Below are positions 269-43,283 of a stretch of 64,000 nt of DNA, piece by piece; position 1 is the first letter of the stretch, and the number at the start of each line of letters is the position of its first letter. The notes beneath the pieces were generated by a model that was not told the DNA's origin, did not search any database, and saw nothing but the letters and a program-made list of their open reading frames with translations. The position numbers were made by a program, and so were the translations under genes. Source of the DNA: Chytridium lagenaria (lineage: Eukaryota; Chytridiomycota; Chytridiomycetes; Chytridiales; Chytridiaceae); the NCBI GenBank assembly GCA_025449115.1, contig JAHLKC010000062.1, positions 124,001-188,000 on the forward strand, given 5' to 3'.

Positions 269-1002
269 AGCCTTGTGAATGTTCGAGGTGTTTTGGGTTA
301 AGTGAGGTCAGGGAGGGGGTTGTTGCAGTTTCTCCTGAGAATCATGTGAGATCTGAGGGGGAGCAGGTTATAGTGACGATTGATGGAAATGATGCGGCGA
401 ACCCCTGAACGGAGAAAAGTATCATACTATACCTCGCGTCAAACACTCTGCCCTTTCATTTTGCAGCAAACATTTTTCTTACCCCTGAGAAACAAGAGCC
501 ATCTTACCCCACCAAACGCACAACACATACCGCAATTTGCCTCTGCTGTCAAACGGCACTGTTATTATCATTTCTCCCTGATTGTTCTATGGGGATGTTG
601 TCTATCATTTATCATGCATATCGCTTTATATCTTTAATATATATCTATCAATTATTTTCCAAAATATGGAGCCATCGGATTTTTGACTTCTATACGTGCT
701 AAGAGGTTTTTCAAATGGTTTTTTATTAATTAAAGAAAAAGATGCCGGTGCTATATACCAAAGCAAATGGCAGGGTTTGTGTTCAAAATGCTCGCACAAG
801 AAAAAAGCAGGCTTGGCTACTAAATACCATTCAGGATCATTCTTCCTTCCCGTATGCAGTCAATGCATCCATGGTTTGGTTCTGCTCGCCGCCTATCTCG
901 TCCCGACATCCCTAGCCTCTCGAACACCACTCTCCCGTTCCACCTCGCCGTGCCGAGTCCAGTCATGTTGAGACAGATATCATCTGTCATCTTCGAAAGG
1001 AG
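269..1002. other. intergenic region upstream of the TIR-LRR gene
   Basis: No convincing gene. AT-rich around 600-730. The frame that opens into the TIR-LRR gene is already open from about 915, right after an acceptor-like ccctag at 909-914. An upstream first exon may therefore lie between 690 and 910, but no start codon can be chosen with confidence. Confidence 0.4.
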
Positions 1003-4000
1003 ATGCAAAAGATACAGGAAAGCATAGAACACACTGATCGACACATCGGAGAGTTGAAGGATGCTGTGAACAATGTCTTTAAACCTGTTACGTCAACACT
1101 TCCCGATGAACTGCCGATCAAAAAAGGTAAAAGTCGTCTCATCTTCCAAGATTTACACCCTCTTCACCAGATATCGAGCTCTCCATCCAAACCTTTCTTG
1201 ATAACCACACGGATCAAGAAATCATCACCACTCCCAAACTTCTATCAATCCTCACAACCATCGACGCAAAACTCCACGCCCGTCTCGCCTCCGACGATGC
1301 AGAGCTGACGGCCATCAAATCCAGCATTTCCGACAAGGAGCGAGAATGGCAGGATCAGACCTTATCGTCCTTGGATGATGTTCATGGACTTTACAATATA
1401 TCATGGACATTTTGGCCGTGGACGCAGACATGGGGGTATGAGTTTGATTACTTTATTTCGTATCGGGTGTCGAGTGAGAGTGCTTTGGCGAGAGAGTTGA
1501 GGCTGGAATTAGAGTTGAGAGGGAAGAAGGCGTTTTTGGATCAGGAGGAATTGAAGGATGGTGAGGTATGAAGAAAATCCTGTTGTTTTGAATATGCATT
1601 GAACCGCTTTTTTGAGTAGGATTGGAGACAGGGTTTCGTGATGGGGTTGAAAAAGTCAAAGGTTGTTATTCTTCTTATTTCAAGGGGATGTATCGAACGA
1701 ATGAGAAATTCTTATCGAGATGTTGATAACGTTTTGTTGGAATGGGAGACGGCTCTCTGCGCTCAGGAAATGGGATTCTGTCATGTTGTTCCAGGTACGA
1801 AACAGCCATTCTTTTTAAAAATACTCATAAACCCTCTATAGTTTTCATTGGACTGGGAGAACTCGATTTTAAAGAATACCCAAAAGAACGCGCCCACCTC
1901 CTCCACCACCACAAACGCCATGACATGCCAACAAAGCGCATTCACGACTCTCCATAACGTCAACCATCTCCCTGATCCTCTTTACCACCCTTACCCTAAA
2001 GAAGGCTGCACCAAAGATCTTATCGACGAGTTGATTCACGAACTGGATGTATTCCAGGAATCACATTCCACAACAACCTCTCGTCGAGCCATGCTCGCGT
2101 TCCACGAATTCGCGATGATGGGTGCATTCACGTCACCCAAGGATCTGTTGAACACATGGATAAGCGATACGATTGAGATGGTGCATGTTCCGAGACGAGG
2201 ATTTGAGGCTGCGAGGTTGGTGTTGGAGGAGAATAAGTATTGGAAGCGGTTTATTGTGGGAGGTGGGAATGTCTATTTTTATTTTTTTGTCTAAATGGTT
2301 AGATATGGGAGTGAAAAAGGATTTGATGGGGATGCTGAAAATGGTAATGAAAAAGTCGCCTGTCAGTGTTGAGGTTCGGTATCGAGGTTCGTTGTTCATG
2401 TTTTTCCCCTCTATTCTGCCGTTGTCTCATACCATGTTTTTAGGTTTGGGCGTGTTAGGGGAAGACGATGTGAAGGATCTTTTAAAGTTTACAACCAGTA
2501 AAGAGCAAAGTGAGTCCCCCCCTCCTTTACCGGATATTTACTAAAGAAAAAAAGACTACGTATGGGAAATCCAGGACATACACAGAGGACAATTAGAAAT
2601 AATGAAAGATAATCCTTACAATAGAGTTTTAAGTTAGTGTTTCATACCAAATAATATCTAATTATATAGCTATATCCAAGAACGAGTTAAATGCTGCAAA
2701 AAACGATGGTTCGTTTTACTTTGCACCCGCGCTTAATCGTGTCTAGCTGTAAGATTCGAGAAGAAGATTTGGTGGAAAAGTTAAAGGAGACTAAGGCGGC
2801 AAAGGTGGATCTAGCAGGTACGTTGCTTTCACTTATGTAAGGATCTGACATATCTTAGGCTATATCACTGGAGACCTTGCCACGATTCATTCAATCGCAC
2901 AAGCGCTTGGTGAAAACAAATACATCACGTCTATTGATCTTTCTGGTTAACTCTTCTATATCGAGTATTCCAATACTTACGGAGTTTTTTATAGGGAATT
3001 TATTGGGTGACGAAAAGATTGGGGTTTTGGTATCGCCCATAAGTCGAATGGATCAGTTGGAGGAGTTGAATTTATCAAGTGAGGAATGATATAAAACGGC
3101 TGGCGATTGACTCTTATTTTTTGAAGGAAACTCGATTTCGGACGATGGTGTTGACTCTGGCATTCAACCTTTATTTTCCATGAAATCGTTGAGATCTTTG
3201 CACCTTGACAACAATAATCTTGAGGATTCCGGTTTAAATTGCATCATAAAGTTAATTGAAAAAGGGACATCTGTCGTTCAGCTTTTATTAAACCGTCAGT
3301 AGGCCTCCTTTTTCATATTTGCTATGTTTACCCCTTTTTTTTTCCTATTTATGCTCAAATTTTTTATTTAAATGTAGACAATGAGTTTACAGACACTGGC
3401 GTCCACGATTTCGCCATTGCTCTTCAAAAGTCAACCTCTATACAACGCCTCGAAATCGCAGGTTACCTTCTTCTCTGTTACCCAATTTGTTAAGCATCGT
3501 AGGAGTTTTAGCATCACATCAAACCGTCAACGCTTTTATTAAAGCATACAAATCAAACAAAAACCTATTGATAAGGTTTGACAATGAAGAAGGTAATGTG
3601 GTTTTACCTTATTTTGTTATATTTTGATGTTAAATTTATTTTGTAGCGTTAAATGAGCTTGTAAAGTATGAGTATATGCTTCCAATGCTGTTTCAGTTAA
3701 ATGGCGTGGTTGAAAATAGTCCTTCAAAAAGTAAGCCTTTTTTTCTTTCACTTAATTTCTTCTTCTCACGCGCTAATCCGTTTAACTATAATCAGGCGAG
3801 TCAACCATTATTACATTCAACAAAGGTAAACTCTTTTTCATATATAATCTCATTTCATCCTCCCAGATATCCCAGAAGCTTTCTCTCCCCAAGAACACCA
3901 ACCCGACAACATCCCAACCCTTCTCACCCAAACCAAATCCCGCATCCTACAAGCATCGTCTCAACTCACCCACAAAATCGCTGAAAAGGCCCATCTCCAA

Positions 4001-4231
4001 AACATCCTGACGGCAATGACTTCGATCCAGTTCAACCGTACCAGCGTGACCCACAATTACCTCAACTTTGAACCGACTTGGCCGTTTGAGCTTGGGGATG
4101 CGCCGCCGAGTGTTGTGATGATGGATCGAATTTGGGGTGAGGGTGGGGTGTCGGATGAGGATAAAGCGATTGTGAGGGAGATTGGATTGAGGTTGAGGAA
4201 TGTGAAGGTGGGAGGATGGAGGAGTGGTTGA
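1003..4231 (+). CDS. TIR domain - leucine-rich-repeat receptor-like protein
   Basis: Exons seen: 1003-1126, 1171-1565, 1620-1794, from 1842 on, then LRR exons 2859-2945, 2995-3078, 3127-3294, 3378-3461 and 3512-3592. Residues 1-125 are a helical leader. A TIR domain follows from about residue 131: strand A reads YEFDYFISYR, the BB-loop region LDQEELKDGEDW, then VVILLIS and NVLLEWETAL. Glu214 (first E of LLEWE) falls where SARM1-type TIR NADases carry the catalytic glutamate, and the domain ends with VVPVFIG. About 150 helical residues without a Walker A motif come next, so no NACHT or NB-ARC is seen. RI-type LRRs then carry LxxLxLxxN cores, and the C-terminal region holds WPFELGDAPP. One frame slip lies near 1930-1955 and another probably near 4210, beyond which the frame could continue into the acidic tract and the next gene. 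The start is the first in-frame ATG; the true N-terminus may be further upstream. Likely a cytosolic NAD-cleaving or scaffold-type sensor, by inference from TIR families. Confidence 0.72.
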
Positions 4232-5459
4232 TGAGGGATAAGGAGGAGGAGGACGAGGAGACGAGGTGGATTGGTGAGGATAGGGATGGGAAAGGCGAAG
4301 GAACTGGGGCAGGCGAGGGTGAAAGGAAACGAGAATTGGACGACGGGGGACGTGAAAAAAAATGGAAAGGTTCTGACGAGAAACGGAAAGGTGGTGATGA
4401 TGATGAAGATGCAATTACTGTGGAAGAGAAGGAAGATGAGAGCGAAGGTGATCCAAGTTTAGATGGTGAGGGCGATGAGGAGGAAAACGAGGAGAGCGAG
4501 CCGACGTTGGATGAAAATGAGGAAGACTACACGGAAGGAAAGGAAGAAGCTGAAAAAACTTGGATGCAGAAAACGCGCAGCTTGCCGTGCACGAGAAAGT
4601 AGCTAGTATTGGGTATGAAAAAAACATCTCTTGACGGTGACGGATTAGCTGCGGAAGGGGTTGACGATGAAGCCGTTGCGGAGGAGGAACAGAGCGAAAT
4701 GGAGCCGAGTTTAGACAGCGCGGCGGAGTTTGAAGAAAGTGAGGAGGATATCAAGCATGATATTGCTGACAATGATGGAGGAGTTGAAGAAATATGTAAT
4801 GAAGTTCTTGAAGAAGAAGATTGCGAGAAAGGCGCTTTTGAGATTGAAGCTGAGGACAGCGAAGAATCAAAGTTTGCAGTGGACGAATTGACAAGTGAGG
4901 GAGACGCGGTTGACGTTGTCGATACGAAAAGCGAACGAAGTAATGTTGAGGAGGAAGAGAAGGAAGAGGTGGACAACGAAGAGAAGGTAGAAGACGACGA
5001 AGAGGAACAAGAAGACGAAGAGCAAGAAGAAGTAAAAGTGAAAGAGGATGAGGATGAAGAGAAAGCAGAGGGCTACAAAGATGAAGAGGAAGAAGAAGAA
5101 GAACAAGAAGAGGTAAAGTAGAAGAGACTGAGGATGAAGAGAAAGAAGAGGGCTACAAAGATGAAGAGGAAGAAGAAGAACAAGAAGAGGTAGAAGTAGA
5201 AGAGGATGAGGACGAAGAGAAAGTAGAAGACTACGATGACGAAGAGGAAGAGGAAGAACCAGAAGAAGAGACGAAGAAGAGGAAGACGAAGAAGAGGAGG
5301 AAGACGAAGAAGAAGAGGTCGACTACGATTCGGAAGAAGAACCTGATCCCTCTGCCGACGAGGAACTCCCAGATGACGCTCAAAGTTTTATTCAAAGCAA
5401 TTCCGAGGATCTTAGCAAAAAGATTGTAAAATTTACAGTCAGAAAATCGCAATACCCGA
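4216..5459 (+). repeat. Glu/Asp-rich low-complexity coding tract (GA-purine repeats)
   Basis: About 1.2 kb of purine-rich DNA (GAAGA, GAGGA and GATGA runs) that encodes strongly acidic protein in successive frames. A near-duplicate block recurs: 5053-5110 and 5115-5215 both read DEEKxEGYKDEEEEEE-like sequence. The frame breaks at least at about 4560, 4620, 5110 and 5270, each beside short A or GAA runs. It feeds directly, without a promoter-like gap, into the pseudo-TIR exon at 5518, so it may be an acidic linker joining the flanking TIR-LRR parts into one protein of roughly 2,000 residues. Replication slippage or read error would both explain the frame changes. Confidence 0.6.
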
Positions 5460-8400
5460 AAGTCAAGGTACTTTTCTATTTTCCACTCTCACGTACGTTA
5501 AACTAACTTGAGCAAAGTTTATGAATTCTCGTAAAGCCGCCATTGATAATATGCACAACACCTTTCCAACAGTTGTCATCGTGTTTCTGTCCGAGTCTAT
5601 TATTAAGGACTTATGCGACTCGAAAGAGAAGGTGTGGGCTGCGATTAATGCATGGGATTATATGATGAGGCTAGCGGATGCAAGTCCATTAACTGTTCTT
5701 CCAAGTAGGTCAACTCAATTGTTGCATGGCTTTTGATAACTCTTTCTGACTGCGCCTTGATCTTCCTCATGTTATAGTATTCATTGCATCTCGTGGCGAA
5801 GGTGGTGGAATTATTGGGAGCATGTTTACAAAACTTCGACATGCCCTGTATTTGGTGAGCTCGACGAACTCCGAGACCAGGAACGACACCCAATGTTTAG
5901 ACCGCACACTCAATAATGAGGCAGGGACGACAGAAGATGCCGAAACATCCTTTGCGCGTGCTTTTGATACAATCAACCGCCTTTTCAAGCTTCAAGGAGT
6001 AGTGATAGAGAATCTCCAGCAAGCTAAAGTAGTGGTCGATAAAATTGTGGAAACTTGCAGGCTTCGAATTCGGAGTGAAGTTGGAGCGACTAGTCCGCAT
6101 GTTAAATTACTCAAGAATACAGTTAATGAGTCATTCGTTGCCAGCGGCTTTCATACTGGACATTTCAACATAGTGTTCCCTATCACGAGCGATAACATTG
6201 ATATGGTGCAAGGGTTCTTACCGTTGCCGTATTTCAAAGAATTTGAGGGTATTCTTGGTTTTGAGAAAGGTTTAACTACTTTGATGGAGACATTCAGCAT
6301 GTGTAGTTCACTTGAGTCTATTAATCTTGATGGTAAAACGCTACGACATTTGTCTCCGCTGTTCTAACTTTTTAATTACAGCTGCTATGGATCGTGACTC
6401 CAACGAGAGGACTGATGATGGACTAGCTATCTTATCAAAATATCTGAAAAATTCTCGCTTAATATCGTTGACTCTGCATAGTAAGTGACAGACTTTAATA
6501 TCACGGGAAAACTGACATGTTAAAGTGAACATGATTAGTGGTAAAGCGGCACCTGGCTTGGCGAACGCTATTTCGCGACACCCGACCTTAAAAGAGCTTC
6601 ATCTTAATGGTATTTTGGTTGGAGTCCTTACCGCCTTGATTCTGAATCATCATTATATAGGGTTCGCGTTCCATTTTACTAGGGATATAGCGACAAAACT
6701 CACTACAAATAAAGTTTTAACAAAGTTGACTTTGCGGGGTAAGCATGATTCTCGATGTTTTCAACAATCTTAAAATAAAATAGGTGGACGGATAAAAGAA
6801 AGAGGGATTTTGACATCTTCGCCATTGCCGGACGACGCTATGAAGTCGCTTTGTAATCTATTATTGAGTAACGATACGTTGACACATCTCAATCTTCAAG
6901 GTACTATTTTCAACCTTTCATATTATGTAATCCGTAAAAGGAAATATCTTGCGTACCAAAGATATCGAGCAGCTTGGTGCGGCTCTTGCCCGTAACAACA
7001 CTTTGACCTTTTGGATCTTTCATGTAAGTCAAATCAAGTCTTACTTGCCCTGCCCTGTGTAGATTCATTAACTCTGCTTATGATAAGATTGCTCACTATT
7101 CGATAAAGAGATCGAGATTTTAATGAATCATCTTGTTCATAACCGTTCGCTCAATATTCTTAACTTACAAAGTAAGTGATTGACCTTGTTGATAAACTAT
7201 TGATATTTTTTATAAGTGAACATGTTTGAATGCGAAGGTGGCAAGAAAATTGCTTCATATTTGGCAGCAAATTACACTTTGAAATCGCTTAATTTGAGTT
7301 GCACTTTTGTCGGTGTATCTAGTAGGTTTTTTTATAATGCACCCCTTTTCAGTTTTGCAACCCTTTTATTAACGAATAACTTAATTATTTCAATATCAAG
7401 GTCAGCCGGACTCTCCTGTTATGGGAGATGGCCTTCTGGCTATATTTGAGGCGATGGCGACGAATACATATCTGGAAGAACTGGTGTTAGCTGGTATGTA
7501 ACCCCTTTTCGTATAACTTTTCTCTTGTCTTATCATTTTTACAGGTCAAAGGTTCGGCCCAGACTGTCTGACGTTCTTTCTGGATGCTTTAGAAAGAAAT
7601 AAAGTCTTGCACAAAATCGTCATCCGAAGTAAGATTCCCACTTCATTCTAAATGGACACGGTAGTAACGCGTTGTTTGGTGGATTAAATAGAATGCGGCC
7701 TTGGTGCTGCAGACACGGCAAAAGTGTTGACGGGTATCGCAAAAGCGGGGCGTTTTAAAATCGTTGATATTTCAAGTATGTATTTCTTTCTTATCTGACT
7801 AAATTAGTTAGCAAATGAATTTGATGAGCAGTGCTATCTACAGGTAGTCGAGTGGATCAAGAATGATCATTGTTTGCAAGTTTTCGATGGATGGATTTAT
7901 TGTGAGTGAAACTGGTTGAACCTGGCGACTTAGCTTTCTTTAGCTGTACCGTCTCCTCGAATGTCAAACGAGACTGCATCAAGCCTGCTTAGTGCTATCG
8001 CTAGCAGTGACACTCTCTACGAGTTCCAACTCGACTTACGTCATGGTTTAACATTAGATGTCGAAGATCGTCTAAACAGAAACCGCTGGAATCAGGCTAC
8101 CGAAAACACAACCCGGGCATGGGCGCAGGCTCTCCACAACGACTATAAGGGCGTTAAAATTCACTTGAGGAGTTTGAAAGATTTCGCTGTCTTTCTTAAA
8201 AAGAATCAACATTATCTTCTTTTACTGGCATGGCGAGTATGGGGATGTGGACATGTTGACCGCTGACTTTGATACGGCTGAGTTGGGGTTACTAGAAAAG
8301 CCTAACGCTGAGAGCGAATTGACGCCTTTGGGTCTCGCCATCAAGGGAGGACATATTGACGCTGTCAAGTTCCTTCTCAGCCGCGGTGTGAGGACTATCG

Positions 8401-8912
8401 CCTCTGTCAAGGATGAGAAGAAAATACCCGCTTTTTACTACGCCGCAGGAGTTCACGGAATACCAAGATCGCGCCTTAATTATGTCGCAGGTCACATCGA
8501 CGGATCCTGATGAAATAGTCGATGACGTTAGCGGGGATTTATACGTCCTGGATTCACGGCTCTCCACAAGGCGGCTTTAAACGGATACCATCATGCCGTC
8601 GAAGCTATCCTTCAGTGGACTCGTAAACCGGATGTTGTAGATGCATTTGGATCCACTGCCCTACATGCAGCTGCTCGTGGACAACTACGCGACTGCAATA
8701 ATGAGCCATTGTATGACGACGAGATGAGCATAGCAGAAGTCAGTGCAAGTTATCGAAAGTTGGTCAACGCAGGAGTTCCCATAGATGCGGTGGATGGAAA
8801 GGGTAGAACGGCTCTACAAGTCGCCGAGGTGAAAGAAAGGCATCATCTTGTTAAGGTTTTACAAAGGCTTTCGGCTGAACATTCTGCGAAGACGAACATT
8901 GCCGATATGTAG
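4609..8912 (+). CDS. acidic N-terminus - degenerate TIR - LRR - ankyrin protein
   Basis: After the acidic tract, exon 5518-5704 plus the exon from 5778 encode a TIR-like domain (VVIVFLSES, KVWAAINAWDYMM, LPIFIAS). It aligns ungapped over 47 residues to the TIR of the upstream gene and shares its phase-1 intron just after the VVP/VLP motif. About 180 helical residues follow. About ten LRR exons come next: 6382-6480, 6526-6609, 6661-6738, 6784-6900, 6941-7023, 7088-7171, 7217-~7300, 7401-7493, 7545-7628 and 7692-7775. Then come a charged linker (7960-8200) and ankyrin repeats (TPLGLAIKGGHIDAVKFLL; FTALHKAALNGYHHAVEAIL; GSTALHAAARG; GRTALQVAEVKERHHLVKVL), ending at 8912. The glutamate at the TIR catalytic position is alanine here. 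Frame slips occur near 7005 (LRR exon one base short of 84), 8210, 8440 and 8540. The start at 4609 is arbitrary; this may be the second half of one gene with 1003-4231. Whether it is functional or decaying is unresolved. Confidence 0.6.
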
Positions 8913-30160: not shown

Positions 30161-30386
30161 CTTTTTTTTTTTTTTTTCAAACTGCTGGCTTTGATGGATG
30201 GATGAGACGCGTCGAATATAGACCTTGCTTTGCAGGATGGTAGAAGGAGCAGCAATGAATATGGTGGGGTGGACAGCAGTTGCTTTGTGCTGGCTAGACT
30301 GTACAGACTAGTAGAGCGCTTTGTTTTTGTTGAGAGGACAGGAACGGAGGTTTAAGAAAAAAAAAAAGTACTGGTATGTAAGGTAT

Positions 30387-30427
30387 GGATGAATGAATGA
30401 ATGAATGGATGGATGGATGGATGAATG
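30387..30427. repeat. GAAT/GGAT tetranucleotide microsatellite
   Basis: Runs of GAAT then GGAT, about ten units, just beside the GACT tract and upstream of the minus-strand C2H2 gene. Confidence 0.9.
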
Positions 30428-30437
30428 TGGAATGTGG

Positions 30438-30541
30438 GACTGACTGACTGACTGACTGACTGACTGACTGACTGACTGACTGACTGACTGACTGACTGAC
30501 TGACTGACTGACTGACTGACTGACTGACTGACTGACTGACT
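30438..30541. repeat. GACT tetranucleotide microsatellite, 26 perfect copies
   Basis: 104 nt of uninterrupted GACT. The six-frame translation gives an SQSV-repeat ORF, which is an artefact. It lies about 280-380 nt upstream of the start codon of the minus-strand C2H2 gene. Confidence 0.97.
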
Positions 30542-31905
30542 GGGGATAAGGTGGGTGGAGGTGAAGTATGTAATTGATGGGGGGTAAGTAAGTAGCTGAG
30601 TTGAAGTGAGGTGAGGTGTTGTGGGGAAAGAGGATCAAATTGAATGTGGATGGATCTTAGGGTGGTGATGATGATGATGTAAGTGGTGCATGTAAATAAA
30701 TAAAATAGGAATAAATAAATAAAAATATGTATGTTGGATAAGCACAAGTTTATTTATTTATTTATTTATTATTTATTAAATGAATAAAAGAAATTTAATA
30801 AATTTATTAAACTTTTTAAGGAGGAATTTCTTTTTCTTCTTTTTTTCTTTTTTCTTCTTTTTCATATTCATTGTTTGTTTCTTGATTAGGTACTTTTGTT
30901 TTCAGATTCATCAACAAATACCATTAAAAAGTGATTTAGTCAGTCAGTCAGTCAGTCAGTCAGTCAGTGAGTAAGTGAGTGAGTAAGCACGCAAGTGGTG
31001 AGTAAAAGCAAGTGAATTGATCGCATGCAAATGATGGAGGAAAAGGAAAAGGAGTGGAATAGAGAAACGGAGGGAAAGAATAGGGAATGAGAGAGAGAGA
31101 GAGAGAGGACAGGCGGAGGTATGAGCTTGATTTGACCTTCCTCTTCACATTCCGTGCATAACATGTACCGCATAAATAAATAGTAATTTACTTAACCTCC
31201 CTAAAATGAAAATGGTATGACACTTTATGTAAATATTATGTGAGGGCCATGGCTTGCTTGTCCGTCAGTCGGTGGCGTCAAAACGCGTTTTATGGAATTT
31301 TAGAATTTGGAGTCTAATTAGTAATAAAGTTAATTAATGTTATAATTTTTTATATTTACATAGCAATTAATGATTAATAATAATAAATAATACATTTTGA
31401 ATGTCATGTGTATATTTAATTTCACAGGTGTCTTAATCGAGGGGTTTAACGGTGGCTGTGCAACAAAGAATCATTGGTTGGAATATTCGATCGACACATT
31501 TAAAACTCCGCTTGACACACTTGATACTTTGTCCAAAATGAAAATTATCCGGAATCGTGGAAAACTCCATAAAAGGCGACAATGTCCTTTCCGAACTATC
31601 CAGGCATTGCGCCACTTGGCAAGTTAATCCGAGGTGTTAACAAGACGTTCTGCGGAGACAAAAGAAGGCAACGAGACCAACCTCACGATAGTATGTGAAA
31701 CTGCGGCCTCCTACCACGAATGCAAGAATGTGGTACGTAGGAGTTTAAATAGGTACTCGTAATGTATATTTTACAAAGTAGGATCGCGCAAAATTCATCC
31801 AACATGTTGAGCCAAGTCGACATAAACGTAACTGATAAAAAAGAACAGCTTTCAGTTTAAAATAGCTCAGCCATTCTTGGATGCTATAGCAAGAAAACAG
31901 TTCGT
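30542..31905. other. intergenic, microsatellite-rich
   Basis: Apart from the tetranucleotide tracts it holds an AG repeat (31090-31108) and AT-rich DNA. An ORF at 31397-31627 has no recognisable domain or splice support. Confidence 0.5.
30938..30968. repeat. AGTC tetranucleotide microsatellite (reverse complement of the 30.4-kb tract)
   Basis: About 7.75 copies of AGTC followed by degenerate GAGT/AAGT units to about 30990. It is the inverted partner of the GACT tract about 400 nt away. Confidence 0.95.
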
Positions 31906-32217: not shown

Positions 32218-33349
32218 CTAACTTCTCAAATACCCAGGAATTAACCCCAAGAGGAGTAAAATTTGTTTACAGCAAACGTTCGTGGCGGTAAGCATTGCGC
32301 CTATTCACAAAAAAGTCGATCTTCGTTCCAAGGTTTCCCTGAGAAAGTACACAAGTAGATGAGTACGACATCGATGTAATAATGGGAAACTGTGTATTCG
32401 GGGCGAATAAATACCTAAAAAGTAAAGAATAAAAAGAGAACGGCACGAATATTTTCTAACGGCAAACTGTGCCGTACCTACAAGGAGAGGTCGAGGGATA
32501 TACATATATATGCAAAAGGAACACGTAATAAGAGCAGCGGCAATATTGCCGCAGGCCGCTGTGGGAAAGGATGAGGGAGACAGATGGGGGCTGAAGAAAG
32601 AAAAGAAAAAAACACGTAAAACGGGAGACGCGATGACATGGTACATACTCAGTCGTGACAAGAAGGGACTTCCGCAATCCCATAGATCTCGAGTAGAGAG
32701 TAAACCCACACTGACCTTTATGTTGATACCGCCATCGACCATCATCAGCGTCATTTAATAAAGGAGCCATCAAGTATTGAGAGAGCGTAAATTTTAGTGA
32801 AGTATGACTGCCAACTGAAGCGCACTAAAAATCATCAAGGGCATGTACGGAGATTGGAAGTGATTAAAGATAGTCAACATATACAATGAAAAAATAGATA
32901 CATTGATTAACGCTTTGCTGCAGCTCTAATACGACGTGCTCAATCCACCTAAATATTATTACTGTTAATTCTGAATATAAAAAGTTAAACCCAAATATGA
33001 TAGGAAGAAAGGAAGAAAGCAAAGACCGAAGGCAGGAGCGTGGGAGCCCTATACTTCCATCATGTGATACTCTTTACTTTTAAACGCGATAAGGAAGTAA
33101 ATCGCGCAAAGAAAGAGGCACAGCGCAACAATTGAAAGTTATCTTTGCTTGCTTGTCTCCAAGGATGTCACATCATGCCATGTTATCGTGGGAAGCGGAG
33201 GGGGTCAAGCGCTGTCCATCAACCAAAGCTGATAGCAAGTGATTCATCATTCCGTTTTCGCCTTCATAAAAGTCTTTCATACATCCAAAGGAAGCCTTCA
33301 TTGAGACGAAACCAAACCAGCATTAGGAAGACGAAGCAAAACCACCATC
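32218..33349. promoter_or_regulatory. upstream region of the giant GTPase gene
   Basis: No gene supported. Contains AT-rich stretches, a GGAAGAAA repeat (33004-33020) and the 5' flank of the start codon at 33350 (leader ...accaccatcatg). The ORFs at 32305-32773 lack domains. Confidence 0.45.
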
Positions 33350-36300
33350 ATGAATTTGAACGAAGTGCTGCTCCGAAGTGCTGCAGGACGACTGATCTGC
33401 TCCATAGATGAAGAGACTGAAGCTACCATGATCTGTGTTGATTGCATTGGTTCCCCGCCGTTGTGTGATGACTGTGAAGCTGTTGGTCATCGGTCGAAAG
33501 CCAAACAAGAACACCGCCGTCTCAAGTTGAGCGAATTGATGACGGGCTACCATCTTTCAAACTCCTTGTATGTAAAGGATGAGGTCGTTCCTGACTCTTC
33601 CGAGGGGTCCGTCGCGGTTGATTCTGCTCAAGTTGGTGAGCTCACCATCACTGACTTGGGTCTTGACCCACCAAAATCTGACAATCATGATGATGTGGCC
33701 TTCACACCCTCGTTCGCACCCTCCCAAGCTGACCCCGATATATTGGCGTCCAGCCCGCTGTTGGCGCGTTATCCTGGCTTCTATAAGCTTTTAGAGATTG
33801 TGCAAGATACATCGTCGAACGGTTTAGGTACATTATTGTTTTTCGAGTTTCGATATTCCTTCCATATCTTTTTAAAGTCTCTTGAACATTACCCTCATTC
33901 TTCCTATTTTTCTCTCACACTCTGACTCTGCTTTTATTCAAGTCGACAAGATTGTTATCTCGCAACCCTTTCTGCGAAAATTATGTAACGACCTGGTTCC
34001 AGGGAGCTACAAGTCCGAGTCCAACATTGATTTCGGTGCTCTGGAGAAGCTAAACCTGCGATTTGTGGGAGTTTACGGCAACCAGGCTAGTATCGCCAAG
34101 TACTTGCTTCTAAAAAACGCTATTTCACACGATTTGTAAGTTTCTCTATGAGATATTCCAGTTTGACCTCTAATGTTGTTATAGCTTTGAGGATCTTATT
34201 GCGTCCTCGATGATGGATAACCCTCATATGGGCGGTGCGGCCCTGTTCACTCTCCCTCCAGGAATGTATCTGGTGATCCCTCCTCCCACTTTAAAGGTCG
34301 GCTACGTGATCCACTGGCCCGAAGTTGGAGCCTACAAAGATTCCGCTGAAGAGACCTATTCAAGCACCCACAAGAGCACAGTGAACCTTCAACGATATCT
34401 TACCAAGATTTGCGACCAGATTATTTGCGCAATGACGGACGAGGAGCTTGATGCCTTTGACTTTTCTTCTATCGCTACCTCGGAGATGAAGGGGAATGAT
34501 GATTTTGATGACGATGAAGATCTTACATCCATGACGAACATGTTCCAAGTCACCACGAATCAGTCTCAAAAGGAGAATTTCACGATGCATCCTGGTTTTA
34601 AGGTATGTCTTTTTATTTTATTGAGCTAACTGTTTTGTTTTTTCAAAGATCCCCAATATAACGGCTCTCCCCGTCGTTTCCGAAACCGCAAAAGAATTCT
34701 CCCCCATTATCGCAAGCAGTGATCTGTTCCAAACTGTTCTCATTCCTAAAATCAAGGCATCCGTTGTAGAGACGACTGAGATTACTAAGGGGATTTACTC
34801 CGACAGCGAGGCTATTAATTTTTTACTGGGACGATCGACAAAGGGCAACGACACCGCGCCATCGGATATGATGAACCAAAGTGCCCTCCGTCTTCATAAG
34901 GATCTACCGTTCAACGATTTCCAAACGCTAGCCCCAATTTTAGATAAGCTGCTGGGGATCAAGCGGAAGGCCTTTCTTGCTAAGGAACCATTCAAGGGAA
35001 GTCAAAGAGTGAGACGAAGACTGCAAAGTCGGAAGAGTTGAGGCAATCTTCGGTAGCCTCGGATGTCACGGAAGCGGTTGATTCTCAGGATATTAACGAT
35101 GATAAAAAGTCAAAGCATCCGCTGGAAGATTTAGAATTGTTTCCTGAAGACACTTTTGTTCGGATTCTAAAGGAGGGCTCCAAGCGACGTAATTTGCTCA
35201 GGGAATCTGTTGATGCTAAGCTTAGCGACATTAGCATTGAAACATCGAAAAAGGAGATGGAAGCAAAGGAGACAATCCGGCTTGCTCGTCAGTATCTCCT
35301 CTGGAGAGAATTCGGGTTCGTTTAGATTTAAATTGATTTGTGTTGTATGCATCTACATGCTGTTGTTTAACTTATTTTCTCTGCAGGTCAGAAAAACTTT
35401 CTCTATTTTTGAGGCATACCGCGACTAAGAAATGCTCTGTGCTTCTTGGTCTGGACGATGACGGAAAACTTTCTTCTGCTTTTCGTGAAGAGGTGGCAGA
35501 AATGTCTGGTATCGGAGCAAGTTCTCATTCAAATATTTCGTCTGCGAATTCTCTGCAAGAGAAAGACGTTCGTGTTCCTATCCCATCGTCGGCATCTAAT
35601 TCAAATCTTCGGCCTGAAAATCTTTCGCAAGAGGAGGACGTTCTTGTACATTGTCGGCATCTGCAGAGAATGAAGGACGGGACAAGTCCTTTTCAAGCTC
35701 TTGTCTTCCAATTACCAAGGATCTTTCAGAAGCGCCAGGCGTCGTTATTAAAACGGACATTATTCACTCCGAATCAAGCGTTGCTATGGTTGGGAAAGGT
35801 TAGGCGTTCTCTTAATACTATAACTCTAACTGTTTCTGTTTTTTTTTTCTCTCGGACTTCAGGGCGCCTACCGAAGGATCTCCCTATCTTGAAACACGGA
35901 CAGCACGGTATGTTTCTGCTAATGTGATGATGCGTAAAAATATTTTCCTAATACATATTTTCCTCCACTTTGGCATCAGCATTCAGTAAATGTGAGCAAA
36001 TATTTCCTGAAGCTGCGGATTCTATCCGCAATGAGTGTAATCGGCTTACGGGGCAATGGCGATCATTTGTGCGTAATATAGTCTTCGCGAATCGATTTGT
36101 CGACGTCGTGTTAAAAGAAACTAAGAGGAAGAAGGGGTCTTTAAAGAATAACTGGAAGGAAGAACTCTTTTACGACGTTTTTAAAAACGTTCAGAGGGCA
36201 GGGATATCCTACGGAGATACGGTGGCATCTTTCTCGGTTTCAAAGATAAAGTCGCGCTTTGAGCAAATCAAAATATCAATTTGCGAATTTATCGACGGGG

Positions 36301-39300
36301 TTTCTGTGGAAGATGATGATGATAATAAGACATTGTCTGACTCACTCAGGATGCTGGTGTTAGATATTGAGGGAGCTAAGACCTTTGATTATACCGCTGA
36401 AGCATGGACAACAATTGAGCAGATGCTTAACGGTATACTTTTGCATCAAGGCAAGGGATCTTACGCGGACGTCACTAGGAGAACTCCGCATTTCAAAGCC
36501 GTCAAGTATTATTTCGACATTTTCCACGAGGTGTTTGTCTCTACGGATGTCCCAATGCACCTTTTACCTGATTTTTCGAAAGAAAGTAAGGTTCTACAGG
36601 ATGAGATTACGGCATATATCGAGATCGAGAACGGTAGAGTTGGCCAGTCTACTGTTGAGACAGCTGGATCCGTATTAGCAGGCCTTTTCCCTGACGGGTT
36701 GGTATTTTTCGTACATATTTACAATTGTGTATTGGTAAAGTTCTTTTTTAAGTTAACATATTTTAAAGCACTCCAGTTACGATAACAAGCTGGAGTATGT
36801 ATTTACCTTTAATGCTTCTTATTTATCTAATATTTATGTAGATGGTGGCGCTTGGTACACCGGCAATTCTACTCAGGTACGGGTGCAATTCGAGAGCAAA
36901 TCACATGAAAGCATCGTCTACGACATAATCAGGACCGCCTTGCGAGATGACGATCGTCGAAAACTTGCGATTGCCAGCTCATCAGAAGTTTTTGGAATTT
37001 TAACCCCTAGAACCACTGGCATTATTGAAAGCTTTTCTATGGATATGAATTCTGAACTCATGTAAGTCCATGATCATCAGCGTCCTTGCTCATTTAATAC
37101 TCGTTTCCTTTTTTTCAAATAACTCACGCAAACACTACACTAGTAAGGTCTTCCACTGCGAAAACAGTAAGCTACTCCTATTTTACAAGACGGTTGCGAA
37201 CGCCACCAAAATGCAATACGGAACAATACGGGATATTAATAAGGCGATCTCGGAAGGGAATAGTACGAAGTTTTTTCGCAGAGGGTGCGATTTTCTTGAT
37301 TATCATGATGGTGACGGGGTTTTGGTTTTATATGACCACGAAAAAGCAAATGTTAGGTGTTTTGAATCTTGCTCACCGTTGATTGTTTTATTGATAAATC
37401 TGCTAGATTGCCGTTTATAAATTCGATGAGGCCCGCATTGAACTTTCTCCTGTTCAAAAGCAGCACAACGTTTTGGCTTGGTATAATAACGAGACACCCG
37501 ATCTTGTTTGTATCAAATTTGCTCAAAGCAGTGCGGAGGAGATTTGTTTTGTCGAGAGGACTGGTCGAACTCGAGTATTCAACATTGCTTCACTTCAGTT
37601 TCAGCCTCGAGATTTTATGCTCCCTTGTTTCAACTCAACGTCATCAATTCTTCGTACGCCGGGAGGAGAAATGCCTTTTGGTGATTGCGGAAGTTGACAC
37701 CGAAAGTGGCCAGCAAGTAGAGACGTTGCCCACTGACAGTCCGATAATGGAGAATGACAAGATGCTAGGGCCGCAAAATATCGACGTTCTTAAGCAAACG
37801 GAGGTTGTGACGCATGAGGTATTTATCTTCCTTTGTAATTTGTTTACTTATATTGCAGTCATTTGAAGCAACGTCAGACGTTTGGAGTGAGGGCGATGAT
37901 CAGTTTAGCGATTCCGAAGGATCCGAGTTCTCTCTCGTTGGCTGCGACAAAAAGCGTACTACAAACGTCAGGACGGATGAGCTGATGCCGCTGAAAACGA
38001 CAGAAGTTAACGGTGATCCACCCGTTAAGGGAAATGGGAGCGATGAGCGGCCTTTATCGATGCCTTTGACCACAAAGGGTCTCGTCTGCTTTGTCTTCTT
38101 TGCCTCCAAGCTAGGAGAAGTGGAACCTCTGAAAATAGAGTTACCAAACCGAATCACGCCGGCGATCGCCAAAACTTTCACCGTGTCTCTTATTGAAAAG
38201 AGACAGCTTCATCTCGTTGGAATTGACGAGGTTTGTGCTATCTGAAACCCCTACCCAAACATTATTTTTTTCCCAAACCTTACATCTATCTTCCCTTCGG
38301 TTTATGCTAGGAGGGTCAAGTGTTTTCATTCTTGCTCGACATCTGCGTTGAGAAGAAAAGTTATGATTTCGTCAAGAGAGATTTCGCACAACGGAATTTA
38401 ATTATAGTTGAATCCGGTGGTCTCATTTTCAAGCTAAAATCAAGCGCTGCCTCTCAGTCCGTGAAGGGTCGGGTTGGCGATTCAATCGTCATTGGTAAAG
38501 AGACGAGAACTATTGTTGGAATACGAGGCCGGTCCATTGAAGTGGATGCCCCGTTAACGGTCGCCGTCTCTCCCGCGGAGGTCGCATTTGAGATTATACG
38601 CCGCAACAATTCCAATGGACTTCTGGACTGTTTCCGGCATATCTATGTGAGATACCCCATTGAATCGGTTCTTGGCGATAATTCCTCGAGCATTGTGCCG
38701 CATTTGATAATCTCAGTGATCGACTCAAGTGAAAAAGACGTGATTAAATCAGGATCGCTTAAATCAGGATCTTTTGAATTACCGTTCGATATGACAGCGT
38801 CTATGTCCTTGACGCAATGGACGAGTCTCCAATCCCGAGCACCTATTGCAACCTTGATCGTCAAATTTGTCGCGTACCTGGAAGCTCTTTTCACGCATCT
38901 ACAAAACGCCACGAAAAAGGATTGTTCAAAGCTTATGGTTTTTTCGAAAACGGTTAAAGTCGACATACTCTCTTGCCAAGACTCATTGCATTTTTTGCCT
39001 TCAAAACCAATTGGCTCGTGGATGACGGGCTTACTCTGCTTGCTTCCGCTGCAAATTGCGACGACACGGTCAGGGCAACTACTACCTCTGAAGGACGGCA
39101 TTTACTCAAATGTGATGGAGGGTCTTGACCTTGCTGGGATATCGCGGGCGATCACGTTTGGGTGGCTAGAATCCATTTTTACATTTTATGGGAAGAAAAA
39201 ACTCCCGATTAAGGTACGTACTTATGTATAATAATCTGTTAAAACTTCGCCGTACTCCATTGTAATTGAGTAGTAATTAATAACTTCGTTTTAAAAAAAA

Positions 39301-42300
39301 AGGTTTTGTCCGTCATGGGCGCCCAATCTACCGGCAAATCGTTCATGATAAATCATATTGCCGGCACGCACTTCGACGGAAATGCTATGGTATGTATATG
39401 TTGTGAAATTAATATAACAATGAAAGCGCTGCACGGAAGGTGTTTGGATGTCTGTTCGGCCTACTATCGATACCATCTACGTGTGCCTGGATTACGAAGG
39501 TCTTGGATCAGTTGAGCGGAGTCCGCAAGAAGATATGCTACTCTCTCTTCTGAACGCCGGTACAAGTCACTTGATTCTTTACAAGGTTTTTATTCCAATC
39601 GTCATATTCGCTCTCTCTTTATTATTTCTTTTAATTTATCCTAAAGCTAACTAATCTCTCAGACAAACTTATCTCTTGGAAGATCGATGAGCGAGCTGTT
39701 CCAAATGTTCCAAGATGGCGTAAAGCTTTTCGATCAGGGAAAGAATGATCGCTTATTTAAGGGTCATTTGTTTGTTCAAGTTAACGACGTAAGTGAGGCT
39801 GATCGATATGGAATCGTCCAAGAGTTTCAGACAAAGCTAGCGAATATTGTGCAGAATGGTTTGTGCTTGCCTCCTTTTCTTTACATAACAGGACTGATAA
39901 AGAAAAACTTTTCTGTAGAGGGCGATGATAATTTTATCACAAGGCTATTTCAGAAGAGAATGAACATTGAGGTAAGATTTAAAAGAAGAAGAAATTATTA
40001 ACGTTTTCAGCCTTGGCCACTTTTTAGTGACTCCGACTTCTACTCTAAAATGAAGGTAGTTCGAGCGTTTGCGAGGAAAATTCAAACACCTTACATGAGC
40101 GCGGTAGAGTGGAGAGAGGACACGAAGGTATGAGTATCACTGTAGTAGCACCCCTAAAACGATTCAGATGCTTTTGGCCAAACTAATGATTTGCGATTGG
40201 GGTTCTATCGATGACGACTTAATAGAGTCAAGAATGAAATTGATAATGTCTCTCCTTCCGACTGCTCTTAAATACGGTTGTGAAGATGAATCTATGGAGA
40301 AGGAGCCATTACGTTGCCGAGATTCAGGGGAACTCATAACTGAGAGCGAGGAATTCATTGACCTTTCTTCGCTGCACGTCAAAGGCTGCAGACTTTTTAA
40401 AGAAGGATCTGTAGATTTTTCGATGGGGCTGGACACCGACCGCATATTTCCGTATGAGCCTTCCGTCACTCTCGGAACGTGCATTCGGGATCTTGTCATC
40501 GATTTTTCACGAAACGTTGCGGATCGCAAGGACGCCAAATCTGATCAAGACTGGTTTCTGTCGTTCAAGGCATTCATTGGATATTTCGTGAGCAGGAGAC
40601 TGAGACGCGTTCAGGAATTTGTTGACCAGAATTTTGCGAGGTTTCCGGAAATCGACACGCGATTAAGTAACACCCTTTTGGACATTCAGAAAGAGGTTAG
40701 GAGGTTTGAATCAGCTTGGACTCTATGTGGAAGATTTTGCAGCGAATGCGAGCTAAGGTGCCTTGAGCGGGACGGACACGATGGGCTGCATCACTGCGGT
40801 ACGGACCACAGATGTTATCATCTCTGCGAATATATAGAGAGTCATGGAACGGAACGGCCTGTATGCAAATCTAAGGTACTTTGTCATTTTTGGCTTTCTT
40901 TGTCATTTTTTGACCTTAACTTAACGTGCGGCCGTTAAAAGGCTGGGCACCGTTTGAACGACTCCGGGCGATCGCATGCATGCGATGAATCGGGCCACTT
41001 CTGTGGTCAGCCGTGTATAGTAAGCTTGTCATCTCTCTATAATTTACTCATATAATCTCAAGTTCAAGGACTGGAGAAACTGCCAGCAAGTATGCACATT
41101 AGAACTTTACCACAGCGGAGACGAACATTTTTGCAAAGCGCGCGCGCATTTCTGCGATAACCCTTGCTCTCTTCAAACAAAGGAATTTAAATGCTCCGGT
41201 AGATGCGTGGAGACCTGCGAGGACAATTTGGACCATAGTTACCACCGCTGTGAGAACCGCGGATGTCCTGTGACGTGTGTCATGCCTGGTTGTACGGAGA
41301 AATGTGGAGATAACGACCACTTTCATGATTTATCTTTGGGAGCTCTGCATATTTGCGGGTAAGTTTTATAGATTTTTAGAAATACTTTAATGTTTTCTTA
41401 TACGTTTTTATGTCAACATCAGAAAACCGCACAGATGCGAAGAAGATTGTCAGAGTCAAGGTGTTTGTGATATCTCGACACAACCGGAGGTTGAAGAGAC
41501 TTTGCAGAGATTGAAGTATGGGGCCCTTAAATTTACAAAGGTATTTATTCAGTTGACTCGATTTTTCTTTAGCATTATAGAGCTGTTTTTCTTTAGCATT
41601 ATAGAGCTGCACATTAATGTTTTTCAGTATACTCAAGTCGGTAAACGACTGAAATGCTATAAGGTTATATTGCCCGGACAGACGAAACACGAAGGAGTGC
41701 ACAGCCACTGTGAGAATGACTTCCACTTTTGCGAAATGAAATGCCCGTTCTGCAACTACTTCTGTACTCTTCCCATTGGCCATCGTCAAGAGCATTCTAC
41801 ATCGCACGGCAATATGTCGCGAACAAAGTTTACACTTGCCGACGGCGACGGTGATTTCGAATATGAAAATCAGAAGTTTTCAAGCGGAGATTCAGGAATC
41901 GCCTTCCTGTGCTCTATGGTAATTTAAAAATTCTTGCGTTGTAAGAATACTAACATTTTTTTTAGTATTGTAAGCAATTGGGGCGTCATTCGCATATCGA
42001 TTTTTGTCCGAATCCGGGTGGTTGCCTAGATAGTGATCACATTCGGCACCTGTCACACCCCATTCTACCAGATCCACTCCGGAAGAAGGAGCAGATCACT
42101 CACTCGCTGTTTTGGAAAAGAGCCGGATTCCAGGTATTTTCATATTTTCAATCCTACTGGCTTTGCGCGTGGGCAAACTCTAATTTAGTTTTCAGGATCC
42201 ATACTCGATGGAGGAACGTGAACGCTTCACCTTGTGTGAAGCAGAGTGCGCTGGAGAGGAACACAAAAATGGGAATTCGCACGGATCCTCCTGCACTCGG

Positions 42301-43283
42301 CCCATGTTTCACAAGCCTCTTGCGGCATCTGGCGGAATTCCAAGAGGAATTGGACATATTTCCATAGTCAGTCTTGCTCAATATCTACTTCTCTAATTAT
42401 CTGTCAGGATGGACATCATTTTGAATGTCAAGCCCCTGTTCAACGGTCGGGATACCATTTAGTCTTTGTTATTGACAAAAGCGGGTCAATGGAGAGTCAC
42501 GACATTCAACCGCAAAGGGGAACTCCGTACTATGCAGAGCTAAGTAAAAATCGTTACGGTGCTGCGTTAGAAGCGTGCTGTCGCTTCGTGGATCATTCTC
42601 TAGCAGGCAATATTTGCGGAACTGTGGCGGACACATTGTCACTTGTCGTGTTCCACGATTCACCACAAGTCTTAATCGCAAATCAAGCTGGGTGTACAAG
42701 TGCGCAAATCTTACAATGTGCTCGAAATACTCGTCCCAACGGCGGCACTAATTTTAATGCGGCCATAGAAAGGGCTCAGGACTTAGTATTGAGCTGCTGG
42801 GTCCCAGGAAGGTGAAGACAAGGGGTTTTCATTTTTCTGACGTTTGGTCATCTAATAATAACGTTAAACTTCACATTGCAGAATCCCGGTGGTTATCTTC
42901 CTTTCTGATGGAGAAAGTTTTTGCAACTTTTCGAAGTTGAAAGCCTTTAAAAACATTTGTCTTAGAAATGGGTAAGAGTGACAATATCTTCGCCTTCCCT
43001 TCAAGCTTCATGGTAATACTGAATCCTATTTTCCATCCTCCCCCCATCCAGCCACGGTCTACGCTTGTTCACGGTGCTGTTTTCATCTACAGAAAGTTCA
43101 CCGGTCCTCGCCGAAATGGCCCAAATGGTTCTCGTCTCCCACAACGCGAAGCCATCGGAGTCTGCTGCTTATGGTGGTTTTTTCCAAGCCATTGATGGAA
43201 TTCAACTCAGCCAGCATTTCGTTGGCGTGGCCAAAAGTTTGCTAAAGTCGAAGCCGTCACTTATTTCAGTGAAGCGAAGTTAG
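33350..43283 (+). CDS. giant VLIG/GBP-like GTPase with B-box, Cys/His-rich region and vWA domain
   Basis: A many-exon gene of about 9.9 kb. The ATG at 33350 is followed by a B-box zinc finger (CVDCIGSPPLCDDCEAVGH with a distal EHR). A long helical region follows, including YGNQASIAKYLLLKNAI. From 39300 comes a dynamin-superfamily GTPase domain: P-loop GAQSTGKS (G1), TEGVWMS (G2), DYEGLGS (G3) and VQVNDV as possible G4. After more helices comes a Cys/His-rich array of about 250 residues (40730-41480; CGRFCSECELRC, HHCGTDHRCYHLC, HFCGQPC, HFCDNPC, CPVTCVMPGCTEKCG), then further CxxxC/H clusters to 42440. A C-terminal vWA domain has an intact MIDAS: DKSGS, GGTNFN and FLSDGES. The stop is at 43281-43283. 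Exons join cleanly across 39213-39302 into the G domain. Slips occur near 35000 and 35645. The family is known as large interferon-inducible-type GTPases in animals; fusions with vWA are the unusual part. Probably a cytosolic, oligomerising GTPase; the ligand is unknown. Confidence 0.8.
41562..41609 (+). repeat. 24-bp tandem duplication inside an intron of the GTPase gene
   Basis: Two exact adjacent copies of a 24-nt unit (TTTTTCTTTAGCATTATAG and so on), each with a pyrimidine tract and AG dinucleotides, just before the apparent acceptor tttttcag at about 41628. The intron thus carries duplicated decoy acceptors. Confidence 0.85.

Follow-up and report, generated by a model that had tools for sequence, protein, structure and literature searches.

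A locus of Chytridium lagenaria raises the question of whether a fungus can join TIR, LRR and ankyrin (ANK) parts in one protein without the nucleotide switch of NLRs, and of what such a protein might do. We addressed it for a gene in the window, the 64,000-nucleotide stretch at positions 124001-188000 of contig C62 (JAHLKC010000062.1) analysed here. A first-pass annotation had listed a TIR, an LRR block, an acidic linker, a degenerate TIR, a second LRR block and ankyrin repeats; all of these parts are present, with the placement of the acidic tract relative to the second TIR corrected below. Read from sequence and gene models, the + strand from about 916 to 8912 is one multi-exon gene, which would encode in order an N-terminal region, TIR1, a helical region, LRR1, an acidic tract, a degenerate TIR2, a helical region, LRR2 and ankyrin repeats. 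Its features are as follows.

916 to 1126, + strand: N-terminal coding part (BLAST to relatives' N-termini; exon end by hand splicing)
1171 to 1565, 1620 to 1794 and 1842 to about 1950, + strand: exons of a coiled-coil-like stretch and TIR1 (hand splicing, Pfam, PDB profile search)
1932 to 2262, 2303 to 2386 and 2444 to 2509, + strand: exons of the helical region after TIR1 (hand splicing, Pfam)
2754 to 3730, + strand: LRR1, mostly one repeat per exon (hand splicing, Pfam); exons 2754-2817 (lead-in), 2859-2945, 2995-3078, 3127-3294, 3378-3461, 3512-3592 and 3647-3730
3867 to 4228, + strand: stretch that follows LRR1 and precedes the acidic tract; at its end, about 4105-4190 is probably the N-terminal half of TIR2 (suggestive)
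4229 to 5350, + strand: acidic tract, with frame breaks
5412 to 5870, + strand: C-terminal half of TIR2 (an exon end to 5467, exon 5518-5704 and the start of exon 5778-6332)
5871 to 6332, + strand: helical region after TIR2
6382 to 7775, + strand: LRR2, ten exons
7944 to 8912, + strand: C-terminal region with ankyrin repeats and the stop codon, with frame breaks near 8240 and 8450-8570

Splicing was done by hand and with a small home-made gene finder trained on 20 introns of 40-83 bases. The gene finder makes wrong exons, such as the third TIR1 exon of the window copy, so the hand-spliced reading was used there; exon structure between 2510 and 2754 is uncertain in this copy. Position 1003, originally taken as the left edge, falls inside coding sequence. 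Frame-1 sequence from 916 already aligns by BLAST with the N-termini of Phlyctochytrium and Dinochytrium relatives (P0003, E 1e-9; P0001, E 5e-9), and the true start codon lies farther upstream, perhaps at 854, across a frame break. The exons that include TIR1 hold the motif DNVLLEWE at 1725 and a frame break near 1950; a 158-base tandem repeat occupies 4978-5313 inside the acidic tract. Elsewhere in the window, long tetranucleotide repeat arrays lie at 30385-30987, and a large multi-exon gene region on the + strand (33305-42812) matches VWA_2 (46.1 bits) and, weakly and below cut-off, a B-box (21.9 bits).

The suggestion that these parts might possibly stand in the same protein is borne out by a paralogue. 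Whole-genome searches with TIR1 and module 2 (41.9 Mb, 356 contigs) recovered two more copies in tandem on contig C6, at about 393.1-401.5 and 402.5-410.9 kb, and both (L038 and L039) keep the domain order of the window copy. In L038 the end of module 1, the acidic tract and the beginning of TIR2 all lie in one exon (5472-6250) that stays open in one frame, while the remaining two contain 8 and 31 stops; a gene-finder model also runs across L038. A deposited C. lagenaria model, P0024 (BC829DRAFT_242419), covers this DNA too, extending from LRR1 into TIR2; where it aligns (23% of the query), its identity to the C6 paralogue is 100%. Because of the open exon and the independent gene models (P0024 and long models in other species), we read the locus as a single gene; two separate genes are ruled out on the same grounds.

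The first-pass annotation had also proposed looking for the same architecture in other early-diverging fungi. Among 18 matches, 12 are long deposited relatives (P0001-P0012; 1,798-2,632 residues) from four other Chytridiales species, Dinochytrium kinnereticum, Phlyctochytrium planicorne, P. bullatum and Zopfochytrium polystomum, and they have the same module order as the window gene where tested. The best single BLAST alignment covered 99-100% of the query in two of the 12 and 14-72% in the rest. Pfam cut-offs were passed for TIR_2 in 9/12 and for Ank_2 in 11/12; LRR_6 passed in four (P0002, P0006, P0010 and P0012) and in P0014, and elsewhere the LRR assignment rests on alignment. TIR2 was detected by BLAST at E 1e-3 in 11 of the 12, P0010 differing in that its TIR2 C-terminal half gave no match, and the segment preceding the acidic tract was detected at E 1e-5 in 10 (P0006 and P0012 miss). 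P0012 differs in its acidic C-terminus and in having no Pfam ANK. The P0002 model (D. kinnereticum) ends in PCRF and RF-1 release-factor domains and is probably two genes joined by annotation. P. planicorne accounts for eight proteins, of which six form three pairs, each pair on contigs of equal length. Shorter TIR-bearing relatives occur in Obelidium, Blyttiomyces and Podochytrium and, by name only, in Nowakowskiella. Five of the 18 matches were unused: P0013, P0015 and P0017 (environmental, 10-13% of the query covered), which are LRR proteins with precomputed NACHT and a weak match to part of the query, and the ankyrin proteins P0016 and P0018. A second search gave five matches, of which P0021, P0022 and P0023 were left out of the analysis. 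Many relatives carry the precomputed annotation PF27087, and the name 'NAD(+) hydrolase sarm1' on P0001 and P0004 is justified at most by the TIR. The family is common to Chytridiales. The architecture described at first as unfamiliar in fungi is thus real, and we found no description of a chytrid TIR-LRR family in the open-licence literature on chytrid TIR, LRR or NLR, but members had already been deposited under hypothetical or automatic names.

TIR1 of the window copy matches Pfam TIR_2 at 48.5 bits (cut-off 28). Among solved structures it is closest to the TIR of SARM1 (E 2.7e-6 with the window sequence as query, 2e-9 with a profile of nine sequences), and the printed PDB alignment places the Glu of DNVLLEWE over the Glu of SARM1's WVHKE, which we take to be catalytic E642. 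Of 18 sequences examined, 15 keep DNVLLEWE: 12 among the 15 deposited proteins, plus all three C. lagenaria copies. The catalytic segment is missing from P0008, P0009 and P0011 of P. planicorne, which share the same other sequence in its place; they could form a dead sub-group, or their gene models could have one error in common. By these alignments TIR1 is SARM1-like with the catalytic glutamate kept, and it may cleave NAD+. Four residues before the catalytic Glu, TIR1 has Asn where SARM1 has Trp. Since that Trp matters for NAD binding in SARM1, the Asn calls for caution in assuming NADase activity and may weaken the predicted activity. The same substitution would suit a TIR1 that is a pure adaptor, which would signal through contacts with further TIR proteins, such as the genome's own TIR-NTPase-WD40 proteins, and have no enzyme activity. 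The presence of other TIR genes in C. lagenaria and the retention of TIR2 despite its missing Glu also fit an adaptor, but the widely kept Glu motif does not, and we hold this alternative to be doubtful. No inner branch of the TIR1 tree was strongly supported, so we draw no evolutionary history from it.

Several other TIR genes of the genome have different partners. L048 (C76:174000-183900), L042 and L043 look like a TIR followed by an NTPase domain and then WD40 repeats, the WD40 scan covering L042 among the three; L048 matches NPHP3_N at 62.8 bits, with TIR_2 (21.4, cut-off 28) and NACHT (21.4) both below cut-off. L046 and L047 (C36:171000-190000) have a TIR joined to Sel1 repeats (for L046 as read, TIR_2 59.8 bits and Sel1 172.6 bits), to which the gene finder adds a very long, repetitive tail. 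L044 (C300) and L049 (C17) are TIR genes for which the gene finder predicts C-terminal modules that repeat, apparently in tandem in L049.

We sought to establish what the second TIR is. As an ordinary TIR it was rejected: TIR2 gave no TIR match in Pfam, nor an external TIR in the PDB profile search. Yet in profile comparisons the C-terminal half of TIR2 aligns with the strand C to strand D part of TIR1, with P 5.8e-7 over 58 columns and P 2e-6 over 57 columns, and the score of 46.9 compares with at most 22.0 when columns were shuffled 100 times. In the hhalign register, the Glu position of TIR2 holds Asn, Asp, His, Gln or Ser in 13 aligned rows. On this profile evidence we class TIR2 as derived from a TIR but lacking the catalytic Glu, in keeping with the original description of it as degenerate. 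The acidic tract of the window copy comprises about 380 residues with 52% Asp+Glu (X-marked reading). The conserved segment before it, found at the three C. lagenaria copies plus one E 0.35 match on C71, shows a suggestive likeness to the N-terminal half of TIR1 (hhalign P 0.0088, probability 4.6%), with a score of 19.2 vs at most 16.0 in 60 shuffles. When all 894 columns of module 1 are offered, its match falls at residues 184-222 (P 0.15), the expected place just before the match of the TIR2 C-terminal half at 251-302. A co-linear TIR2/TIR1 alignment of 219 columns was obtained at a very permissive setting and is not taken as proof. We lean towards an acidic tract that sits inside TIR2 and splits it. 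The acidic linker of the first-pass annotation is present, but probably within the degenerate TIR rather than before it.

In the window copy, LRR1 matches LRR_6 at 37.1 bits (cut-off 23.4), LRR2 at 25.8 bits (29.3 and 41.3 in the two paralogues, with a short stretch of the L038 reading left out of the scan as a probable wrong exon) and ANK matches Ank_2 at 40.4 bits (cut-off 27.3). Exons of 84 bases, one 28-residue repeat each, make up three of six LRR1 exons and four of ten LRR2 exons in this copy. The profile search that had been proposed at the outset thus places TIR1, both LRR blocks and ANK above Pfam cut-off, with no match to NACHT.

The claim that the protein has no nucleotide-binding module, and no Walker A motif between TIR and LRR, agrees with both kinds of scan. 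Pfam gave no NACHT or NB-ARC match in the window segments, nor in 13 relatives at E 0.1, and no match at E 1 to the helical region after TIR1. The P-loop pattern is absent from the three C. lagenaria readings; in the 13 relatives it matched twice (P0002:1615 and P0014:821), neither match lying between TIR1 and the start of LRR1. The C-terminal superstructure-forming repeats of an NLR are present (LRR, ANK). With no NOD found between effector and repeats, assignment to the NLR class (STAND with NACHT or NB-ARC) was rejected. ARM and SAM were likewise absent from the Pfam scans of the window segments and 13 relatives. By Kyte-Doolittle hydropathy, the one measure used, there is no convincing membrane span in the window copy, L038, L039 or the 13 relatives. 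Windows of 19 residues above 1.6 occur in seven of the 13 relatives (three in the TIR2 core, P0008 and P0011 at 706-732, P0010 at 628 and P0012 at 996), in neither the window copy nor L038, and three times at one place in L039 that looks like a misread intron. The encoded protein is probably cytosolic.

The C. lagenaria copies contain frame breaks, and some of these copies may be decaying. The gene finder assigned 5 breaks to the window copy, 2 to L038 and 6 to L039, counts that depend on its penalty (0, 2 and 1 at a stiffer setting); by eye there are further, uncounted breaks in the window copy near 920, 1950, 2740, 8240 and 8450-8570. These breaks would fit a window copy, or all three copies, reduced to relics that no longer make protein. 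Some of them, however, lie in or adjoin runs of A, as assembly errors would, and intact long models exist in other species. Against the two paralogues, the window copy has pS 0.80 and 0.77 and pN 0.25 and 0.28 (1110 and 1114 codons), and TIR2 alone has pN 0.21 and 0.31. Synonymous change far above amino-acid change argues that the sequence has long been selected as protein, TIR2 included; dN/dS is mostly undefined because synonymous sites are saturated. We regard decay to relics as very unlikely.

Taken together, the sequences give good support to a conserved, multi-copy chytrid family that joins a SARM1-like TIR to LRR and ankyrin repeats and has no NLR switch. The best explanation, to which we assign a probability of about 0.5, is a ligand-gated cytosolic TIR-LRR sensor in which TIR1 would be enzyme or recruiter and TIR2 scaffold or lock. 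LRR1, LRR2 and ANK would bind a ligand, microbial or altered-self, and keep the protein inactive; ligand binding would let the N-terminal TIR domains assemble. Given the lack of a NACHT/NB-ARC switch, assembly would go through TIR-TIR and coiled-coil contacts. The assembled TIR1 would then cleave NAD+ or a related nucleotide, or recruit other TIR proteins, with cell shutdown or an alarm signal as the outcome. TIR2, without its catalytic glutamate and probably split by the acidic tract, would act as scaffold or lock and not as enzyme. Nothing in the window gene's sequence points to a ligand. More tentatively, and with real doubt, these proteins could form a chytrid class of their own, LRR-based cytosolic receptors that need no nucleotide switch to fire a SARM1-like TIR enzyme and that are autoinhibited by a dead TIR with an acidic insert; if so, they would hold an autoinhibitory pair of TIR and pseudo-TIR in one chain.

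A protein of this kind might also serve self/non-self recognition or development and not anti-microbial sensing. To our knowledge, chytrids do not undergo the hyphal fusion seen in known incompatibility systems, which we counted against allorecognition. The family is repeat-rich and multi-copy, as fungal incompatibility genes are in the portions available of PMC4986451, and on balance we find such a role unlikely. This multi-copy TIR-LRR family of Chytridiales, with its low amino-acid change, offers a concrete candidate for the means by which zoosporic fungi perceive microbes or self. It would also be a natural case of a TIR sensor that has no nucleotide switch and whose chain includes a second, dead TIR.

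How, then, does the family compare with known systems? We take PMC4986451 to be Dyrka et al. (2014), PMC9815663 Wojciechowski et al. (2022), PMC7075850 Toshchakov and Neuwald (2020) and PMC6040629 Richter et al. (2018). In the parts available of the relevant surveys, fungi have hardly any LRR receptors (Soanes and Talbot, 2010; PMC2939053), and fungal NLRs are without LRR, with no NLR matches in the chytrids then analysed (PMC4986451). Excerpts of other papers report TIR in NLRs of Chytridiomycota (PMC9815663), mention TIR in fungi (PMC7075850) and describe TLRs, TIR-kinase and TIR-ANK proteins in choanoflagellates (PMC6040629). The combination of TIR, LRR and ANK resembles animal and plant immune receptors, and such earlier surveys, as far as those parts extend, did not find it in fungi.

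Fungal NLRs (NACHT or NB-ARC with ANK, WD40 or TPR) are similar in being fungal, with the effector domain first and repeats last, ANK among them; the chytrid gene differs in that no NOD was found and in its LRR, which the available part of PMC4986451 did not find in fungal NLRs. Plant TIR-NB-ARC-LRR receptors likewise place TIR before LRR; the chytrid protein is probably cytosolic like them and differs in its doubled module, its ANK and the absence of a detected NB-ARC. Toll-like receptors of animals and choanoflagellates also hold TIR and LRR in one chain. Their layout is an outer LRR, a single membrane span and an inner C-terminal TIR, whereas the chytrid TIR is N-terminal and precedes the LRR, with no convincing span, a degenerate TIR2 and an ankyrin tail. 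Compared with the NAD+ hydrolases SARM1 and TIR-1, the family has LRR and ANK instead of ARM or SAM, and Asn for the SARM1 Trp, but its TIR1 is closest to theirs among solved structures and the aligned Glu is kept.
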